This document shows positions 39,626 to 41,758 of a stretch of DNA of 64,000 nt, piece after piece (position 1 is the first letter of the stretch; each line of letters starts with the position of its first letter). A model generated the notes under the pieces. It did not search any database. It was given only the letters and a program-made list of their open reading frames with translations, and was not told where the DNA came from. The stretch comes from Pseudomonadota bacterium (GTDB lineage Bacteria; Desulfobacterota; Desulfobulbia; Desulfobulbales; SURF-16). The DNA lies in NCBI GenBank assembly GCA_018816555.1, contig JAHIVT010000048.1, positions 1 through 64,000 on the forward strand, in the 5' to 3' direction. Both the position numbers and the translations under genes were made by a program.

Positions 39626-39862
39626 TCAGGATGAAATGGGGATAAGTAGCTCGGCAGGCAAATCAAAATACGGTTGCGGGAAATTGTGCACAGTGCTCAG
39701 AGAGGCGTTGCGGGTCGGTACGTGGGAGTTAATTCTCCCAAGAAGCTGCTGAAAACATACAGGGCAATAGCCATGGGAAATCTTTTCACCGGCTGAGGTA
39801 TTTCTGACTGCCCACCCTTTTAAAGTTTCAGTTTTATGGCAGACACAACATATTTTTTTCAC
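39626..39862 (-). CDS. Small Cys-rich putative metal-binding protein
   Basis: A 78-aa protein with MKKICCVCHKTE at the N-terminus and SHGYCPVCFQQL about 30 residues on, so two CxxC knuckles that could hold zinc. The C-terminal third has no motif. The start is GTG with a strong AGGAGG six bases upstream, which makes it a real gene. It follows the terminator of the selenoprotein gene on the same strand, so it probably has its own promoter. Function unknown. Confidence 0.65.
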   Translation of the reverse strand: MKKICCVCHKTETLKGWAVRNTSAGEKISHGYCPVCFQQLLGRINSHVPTRNASLSTVHNFPQPYFDLPAELLIPISS

Positions 39863-39966
39863 AGCTGTCCTCCTGAAGTTGGTTCGTATATCCTGATAAT
39901 CTTATCGGCAGAACTGAGGAAAACTTCAATTAGACGCGGAATTGGTCAACAAAGGAGGATGGAAGC

Positions 39967-39997
39967 AAAAAAAAAAGCCCCGCCAAAAGGCGAGGCT
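39967..39997 (-). terminator. Rho-independent terminator of the HesB-like selenoprotein gene
   Basis: On the minus strand AGCCTCGCC and GGCGGGGCT pair around TTTT (one G-U pair) and run directly into ten U. It is 25 nt after the stop codon. Confidence 0.92.
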
Positions 39998-40021
39998 CGT
40001 AGTTTTGATTTTATTCTAACG

Positions 40022-40351
40022 TCAACTGCCGCAACTGGTGCCGCATGATCCGCAGGAGGAACCACCGCCCAGCGGCATGCTGGAAGAAATGGCAAATCCT
40101 GACCGTGGACCGGCATCAATAAAATCAACCTTAATGCTGCCACATGTGTTCAGTAAACTTGATTCAACCAGAAATTTCAAATTATCCTGATCAAAAACTT
40201 TGTCGGTGTTTTTCGGCTCATCCAGAGCCAAGCCAAGTGATGGACCAGCTCAGCCACCCTGCATCAAGGCGATTCGGATGGCGGAATCAATATTATTTTG
40301 CTCCAGATACGCTTTCAGATTTTTAATAGCCAGCTCCGTAACGTTCAACAT
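40022..40351 (-). CDS. HesB/IscA-like selenoprotein (in-frame UGA as selenocysteine)
   Basis: A 109-residue A-type iron-sulfur carrier-like protein read through one TGA. It begins MLNVTELAIKNLKAYLEQNN with AGGAGG nine bases before the ATG at 40351. Codon 34 is TGA (40250-40252) in ALMQGG-U-AGPSLGLALDEP, exactly where IscA/HesB proteins have their first conserved Cys. The frame continues to SSCGSCGTSCGS with the C-terminal Cys pair and stops at 40022. HesB-like selenoproteins are an established bacterial family. Ordinary gene calling would report only the part after the UGA. Confidence 0.88.
40215..40229 (-). promoter_or_regulatory. Candidate bacterial SECIS hairpin
   Basis: On the mRNA strand GGCTC-TGGAT-GAGCC forms a 5-bp stem with a 5-nt loop, starting 20 nt after the UGA codon, within the range for SelB-recognised SECIS loops. 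The loop contains the GG dinucleotide usual near the apex. It lies inside the coding sequence, as expected for bacteria. Confidence 0.6.
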
Positions 40352-40588
40352 GGTTGTAAACCTCCTAAAAAAATTAAAAATAAGTTGAAATATCTAAAAA
40401 TGACAAATTGAGAATTTCAGGTTAAATTTTTTAAAATACGTTTTAATCGAACTCGTTAAAAGTTCACAAGATTTTTTCCCGATGCTTAAAAAAAATCAGA
40501 TAGTAATGTTTCTTCAATAATAAGTAATAAAACAGTATAAGTCAATATAATGGTCATTTGATAAAAATGAAAAACCCGAGACAATTAT

Positions 40589-40669: not shown

Positions 40670-41758
40670 ATGAAAAAAATTGTTATTTCAACCGGTGGTG
40701 GAGATGCCCCAGGCCTGAATGCCGTCATCTATGCAGTAGTCATGGCGTCCAATTCCAGAGGCTGGGAAGTATACGGCAGCCGCCAGGGTTATCTTGGCCT
40801 GCTGGATAAAGACGCACTCGTCCGATTGAGACCGGAGGATGTGGCGGAAATCACCCCTACGGGAGGAACGATACTTGGTTCAACCAATAAAGGAAATCCC
40901 TTTGCCATGCCAGTTGAAAACCTGGCCGGCGAGATCAATATCCGCGACGTTTCCGATCGGATCATGAGAAATTTTCTCCGCATGAATTTTTCATGTCACA
41001 TTGCGGTGGGCGGAGACGGCAGCCTGGAAATCGCCCATCGTTTTGCCGTGGAAAAAGGCATGCCGGTTATTGGGGTGCCGAAAACCATTGATAACGATCT
41101 GCTGGCAACGCAGTTGACTTTTGGTTTTGATACCGCCGTTTCCACGGCAACAGAGGCCCTGGACAAACTCCATTCAACTGCCAAATCCCATGACCGGGTA
41201 ATGGTGGTTGAGGTCATGGGCCGGGATTCCGGCTGGATCGCCTTGAATTCCGGTATCTCAGGCGGAGCCGATGTGATCCTCATACCGGAAATACCCTTTG
41301 ATCTCGATAAAGTCTGTGAAAAAATCAACGACAATGAACTGCTGGACAAGCATTATGACATCGTCGTTGTAGCAGAGGGGGCACGGGCCATCGACCATGA
41401 AACCATTTATAAGGGTGACGGCGAGATCGGCAGGTCGGAGAAGGTGCTGGGTGGAATCGGCGAGTGGGTAGCCAAAGAAATCAATAAACGGACGGGAAAA
41501 GACACCCGGTCACTTGTCCTCGGCCATCTGCAGCGAGGTGGCTCCCCTACCACCTTTGACCGCCTGCTGGCCCTGCGCTTTGGTGCCACAGCGGTCCGTC
41601 TGGCGGAAAGTGAGAATTTTGATCAGATGGTTGCCCTGGCAGGAGACCAGATGTGCTCGGTTCCCCTTGCAGATGCCATAAAAAGCCGCAAAAAAGTGCC
41701 GTTGGACAGCGACAAGGTACTGACCGCCCGGGAAATCGGTATCTGTTTCGGCGGGTAA
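40670..41758 (+). CDS. pfkA: 6-phosphofructokinase
   Basis: A 362-aa PfkA-superfamily enzyme phosphorylating fructose 6-phosphate. GGGDAPGLNA is the N-terminal phosphate loop. GGDGS at residues 114-118 carries the small Gly that favours ATP as donor. PKTIDNDL has Lys138, which is usual in pyrophosphate-dependent and group III ATP enzymes. EVMGRDSGWIA, LGHLQRGG and FDRLLA complete the active site. The Gly/Lys combination suggests an ATP-using group III enzyme without classical allosteric control, but donor choice needs assay. It is the only long plus-strand gene in this half of the window and has its own promoter. Confidence 0.92.
   Translation: MKKIVISTGGGDAPGLNAVIYAVVMASNSRGWEVYGSRQGYLGLLDKDALVRLRPEDVAEITPTGGTILGSTNKGNPFAMPVENLAGEINIRDVSDRIMRNFLRMNFSCHIAVGGDGSLEIAHRFAVEKGMPVIGVPKTIDNDLLATQLTFGFDTAVSTATEALDKLHSTAKSHDRVMVVEVMGRDSGWIALNSGISGGADVILIPEIPFDLDKVCEKINDNELLDKHYDIVVVAEGARAIDHETIYKGDGEIGRSEKVLGGIGEWVAKEINKRTGKDTRSLVLGHLQRGGSPTTFDRLLALRFGATAVRLAESENFDQMVALAGDQMCSVPLADAIKSRKKVPLDSDKVLTAREIGICFGG

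Follow-up and report, generated by a model that had tools for sequence, protein, structure and literature searches.

A gene of the IscA/HesB family in a Desulfobulbales genome whose in-frame UGA is very probably read as selenocysteine

The window analysed here is a stretch of 64,000 nucleotides from a draft genome of the Desulfobulbales, and a minus-strand reading frame for a small protein of the IscA/HesB family is crossed in it by a TGA at the 34th codon. Does this TGA end the protein, is it a mistake of sequencing or a sign of decay, or is it decoded as selenocysteine (Sec)? The gene belongs to a selenoprotein family that has been described for two decades and has its own NCBIfam model. HesB-like selenoproteins were listed in 2005 (PMC1088965) and again for hosts including Deltaproteobacteria (Zhang et al., 2006; PMC1794560), with Desulfovibrio, Syntrophobacter and Geobacter among the hosts named (PMC1794560, PMC13188914). 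In 2007 two diverged groups were recognized, HesB selenoproteins being too short and too diverged to form one cluster (PMC1914089), and a 2026 review gives UxGP as the family motif and files the family under TIGR01911 (PMC13188914). Our literature search returned no paper combining IscA, selenocysteine and Desulfobulb.

The gene and the elements at its start are as follows.

40022 to 40351, minus strand: Sec-containing gene of the IscA/HesB family, from the match to NF038090, the translation with TGA as U and the conservation throughout the class.
40250 to 40252, minus strand: in-frame UGA, very probably Sec, residue 34 in the motif GGUAGP, read directly; homologues have TGA and paralogues Cys.
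40361 to 40366, minus strand: Shine-Dalgarno sequence AGGAGG, read directly, 9 nt before the ATG.

The first-pass annotation had placed the gene at the right positions and left its strand unsaid; the gene runs on the minus strand from 40351 to 40022, and the plus-strand reading of the same interval holds a TAG, several TGA and no comparable frame. It had also claimed that reading through the TGA joins a start preceded by AGGAGG to a full A-type carrier sequence, with which the translation of 109 residues, closed by a TGA stop, agrees:

MLNVTELAIKNLKAYLEQNNIDSAIRIALMQGGUAGPSLGLALDEPKNTDKVFDQDNLKFLVESSLLNTCGSIKVDFIDAGPRSGFAISSSMPLGGGSSCGSCGTSCGS

AGGAGG or GGAGG precedes nearly all homologues. 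Ordinary annotation would split or truncate such a gene.

The protein scored 145.2 bits against NF038090 (IscA_HesB_Se; protein residues 1-102, profile 1-101), well above the curated cut-off of 85 bits, and is thereby a member of this family, while the older HesB selenoprotein model, TIGR01911 (HesB_rel_seleno), gave 42.8 bits, below its cut-off of 66.35. It also passed the Pfam model Fe-S_biosyn, and its closest PDB sequences are Aquifex AQ_1857 and E. coli IscA. In an AlphaFold2 model (mean pLDDT 82, with low confidence in the tail 97-109), Foldseek placed IscA and SufA on top (TM about 0.7, E 5e-7 to 6e-6). IscA-type proteins hold iron or Fe-S clusters on three cysteines, in IscA Cys35, Cys99 and Cys101. 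In the alignment with E. coli IscA (1r94), residue 34 falls on Cys35, and the UxGP of the literature is found at this first-Cys position as UAGP. The homology to A-type carriers asserted at first reading, with the UGA at the first conserved Cys, is hence borne out by the family model, the alignment and the fold, and so is the likeness to HesB-like selenoproteins; the further description of this Cys as cluster-binding would apply to Sec34 by its position. C100, C103 and C107 lie in the low-confidence tail, which is flexible and rich in Gly and Ser, and gave no clear one-to-one match to the ligand cysteines of IscA. Cys70 is nearly invariant (59/60 Sec forms) and has no Cys counterpart in E. coli IscA.

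The family was found in all 115 genomes of the class, and exactly one TGA was present in a match in 109 of them, counted among the matches listed. Six genomes first counted without the TGA form were searched again: G105 does have it, four (G036, G050, G089, G098) gave neither a TGA form nor a selA match, and G077 has selA and the machinery with the TGA form absent. A TGA form without a SelA match was found in G039. The TGA occupies the same codon in relatives of the same genus and family, as well as in genomes that were assembled independently under the names Desulfobulbaceae, Desulfurivibrio and related ones, and most family matches above the cut-off in the phylum beyond the class also hold one TGA. 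Desulfogranum marinum and Desulfoprunum benzoelyticum are among the carriers of the TGA form. Cys stands at this position in paralogues from the source genome and from related ones. Downstream of the TGA, pS far exceeds pN (0.112 versus 0.006 against L030, 0.409 versus 0.036 against L029); pN/pS is about 0.05-0.25 in comparison with close relatives and 0.3 overall, with similar values upstream. Judged by these ratios, the sequence after the TGA is under strong purifying selection.

Bacterial Sec insertion proceeds by an established pathway in which SelB acts at a hairpin in the mRNA, and a candidate for this element follows the UGA.

40213 to 40231, minus strand: bacterial SECIS hairpin UUGGCUC-UGGAU-GAGCCGA, supported by folding and by comparative and synonymous-codon tests.

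The stem has 7 bp, the apical loop UGGAU spans 40224-40220, and the hairpin begins 18 nt and its loop 25 nt after the UGA, close enough to the 20 nt announced by the first-pass annotation. Folded alone it reaches -10.8 kcal/mol (z -3.7). Published rules for bacterial SECIS elements ask for a loop of 3-9 nt, a stem of 4-16 bp, a G in the first two loop bases, a distance of 16-37 nt from the UGA and an MFE of -7.5 or lower (PMC13188914), and the hairpin conforms to each of them, its G being at loop position 2. As a filter, these rules were passed by 65/67 Sec forms versus 5/18 Cys forms.

The comparative evidence agrees. Counting unbroken pairs from the loop outward in a fixed register, 60 distinct Sec homologues, which share ancestry and are not independent, retain on average 6.78 of the 7 pairs; when these 60 proteins were recoded synonymously, 1.44 pairs (sd 0.15) remained and none of 1000 trials reached the observed value, and the mean in Cys homologues was 1.93 pairs (n = 14). 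In the distant copy L049, GGCUC/GAGCC is replaced by GACUC/GAGUC, a G-C pair becoming A-U together with a change from Ala to Thr. The codons +8 (Ala GCU), +9 (Leu CUG) and +11 (Glu GAG) are invariant in a gene of which most varies. When the 54 nt starting at the TGA were folded freely against synonymous shuffles, Sec and Cys forms came out alike (mean z -0.84 versus -0.86), because other folds compete; in the window an upstream fold competes with the hairpin, and a fold of 66 nt gave a z of -0.9. The Rfam search of the window returned no SECIS match, which does not count against the element since bacterial SECIS elements are highly variable.

The machinery was searched family by family in the source genome, and all four components implied by the first reading, which had named the lack of selB or selC as evidence against itself, were found above their curated cut-offs: SelA (contig C152, 623 bits), SelB (C131, 372 bits), SelD (C145, 380 bits) and tRNA-Sec with anticodon UCA (C14, 71.5 bits; ARAGORN was also used). 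The selD frame (L018, 1480-2529, plus strand) has an in-frame TGA at residue 18, and to judge from this codon SelD is very probably itself a second selenoprotein. Together with the hairpin, all cis and trans components of the established pathway are present.

Two further observations concern these components. The near-complete genomes G036 and G039 (L127, L128, L136, L137) have intact SelB and tRNA-Sec(UCA) and no SelA match, possibly reflecting a divergent SelA, another route of Sec synthesis or a miss of the search. In the source genome, a paralogue of this family that has Cys and an additional insertion, SGCGCG (L046; G000:C14:64154-64480, minus strand) shares contig C14 with tRNA-Sec, about 11 kb apart.

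How else could this TGA be explained? The source assembly is a fragmented draft of 183 contigs, where a TGC or TGT misread as TGA, or a pseudogene with a fresh nonsense mutation, might be expected; the same TGA at the same codon in independently assembled genomes of the genus, the family and the class, together with the purifying selection after it, excludes the sequencing error that the first-pass annotation had itself raised, and with the conserved SECIS leaves error or decay a vanishingly small chance. A genome-wide reassignment of UGA to Trp or Gly would account for the in-frame UGA of both this gene and selD, but the gene itself and many of its homologues stop at TGA, the paralogues place Cys, not Trp or Gly, opposite the UGA, and a UGA-specific hairpin, tRNA-Sec, SelA, SelB and SelD are all present, so that we hardly credit it at all. 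An automatic annotator would call a product that ends at the UGA or starts beyond it, that is, a peptide of 33 residues or a piece of 69 residues initiated downstream, and an ORF of 69 aa with a TTG start at 40231 does exist; yet both halves are constrained at the protein level as one IscA domain and the constraint on the SECIS would serve no purpose, which makes such a truncated product very improbable.

Counted against the selenoprotein reading itself are the lack of separation in the 54-nt folding, the competing upstream fold, the kinship of the homologues, and the genomes G039 and G077. The conservation of the TGA, the continuity of coding across it, the interchange of TGA and Cys, the constraint on the SECIS and the machinery together make Sec insertion very likely, and with high confidence the product of this gene can be regarded as a selenoprotein, folded as an A-type carrier (IscA/HesB), with UGA34 read as Sec. 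That four of the six genomes first counted without the TGA form gave no selA match also speaks for this reading. SelB carrying Sec-tRNA(UCA) would bind the hairpin 18 nt downstream and UGA34 would be decoded as Sec, the second UGA, which has no such hairpin, terminating the protein.

The surroundings of the gene comprise three more features.

40517 to 40545, minus strand: probable sigma-70 promoter, TTGACT-17-TATTAT, lying about 160 nt before the ATG.
39965 to 39998, minus strand: intrinsic terminator, a stem of 10 pairs (39998-39975) followed by eight T.
40670 to 41758, plus strand: pfkA (6-phosphofructokinase; PF00365, 339 bits), the divergent neighbour.

The block TTGACTT...TTATTACTTATTATT / CTTATAATTT recurs in the intergenic regions of loci of the same genus (L030, L029, L026) and of L032, and the terminator is the perfect one that had been announced behind the gene. 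Beyond it, an ORF of 78 aa (39626-39862, minus strand) has CxxC pairs and resembles a zinc ribbon, with no Pfam match and a weak second match in G000:C152; it was rejected as part of the gene, as it lies past the terminator and adjoins the gene only in the nearest relative among the loci compared.

A divergent pfkA stands beside the Sec form in 52/60 Sec loci across the class (L021-L104), at 226-873 nt; at least one (L062) of the eight loci lacking it is near a contig end. Cys forms at other loci are mostly without pfkA. A Cys copy directly adjoins the Sec copy in at least 10 genomes. Such tandems (L061, L070, L074, L077; G022, G024, G025, G026, G038, G070, G075, G124, G140, G165) have both copies on the same strand with a few hundred nt between them, and either copy may come first; a few of the Cys copies retain a SECIS-like hairpin, a trace that suggests Sec-to-Cys duplication.

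What the protein does can be approached from its fold. Sec34 would form, with C100, C103 and C107 of the tail and perhaps Cys70, a selenolate-containing set of ligands for an Fe-S cluster or iron, and in an anaerobic host the protein would serve Fe-S cluster assembly, in carriage or in repair. We consider the carrier role somewhat more probable than other roles; the part of Sec34 in binding the cluster is inferred from its position, and, read most simply, the exchange would give the cluster site a selenolate ligand or a redox residue of higher reactivity. A selenoprotein whose selenol serves redox chemistry or the handling of metal or selenium, rather than Fe-S carriage, is a less likely, still serious alternative: selenoproteins of unknown role are mostly taken as redox proteins (PMC13188914), and in M. 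maripaludis disruption of a hesB-like gene left nitrogen fixation unimpaired, its function being called unclear (PMC11097638), but the UGA falls exactly on the Cys35 ligand position of an IscA fold. More speculatively, and in our opinion rather improbably, the Sec protein with its Cys70, its divergent pfkA and often its tandem Cys twin would constitute a selenium-responsive Sec/Cys pair with a role unlike that of known A-type carriers; if true, one example of such a role could be a cluster with a selenolate ligand that is linked to central carbon metabolism. In one class of anaerobes that cycle sulfate and sulfur the Sec form is nearly universal, and its conservation throughout the class, its Cys twins in tandem and the neighbouring pfkA provide handles on the function of the family.

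Among known systems, the HesB-like selenoprotein of Methanococcus maripaludis, labelled with 75Se (PMC11097638), is a counterpart that depends on an archaeal SECIS and archaeal translation factors and probably belongs to the other branch, that of TIGR01911. E. coli IscA (PDB 1r94/1s98), SufA (2d2a) and IscA with a [2Fe-2S] cluster (1x0g) share the fold and the position of residue 34, that of Cys35; compared with E. coli IscA and SufA, the present protein has Sec for Cys, the additional Cys70 and a longer tail of the CGSCGTSCGS type. It resembles the published HesB-like selenoproteins in its UAGP motif and in the exchange of Sec and Cys, where one Cys form was also reported to keep a remnant SECIS (PMC1794560, PMC13188914), and differs from them in missing the cut-off of the model under which the review places the family. 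With NF038090 the match is full-length and nothing of note is different: the protein is a member of IscA_HesB_Se.
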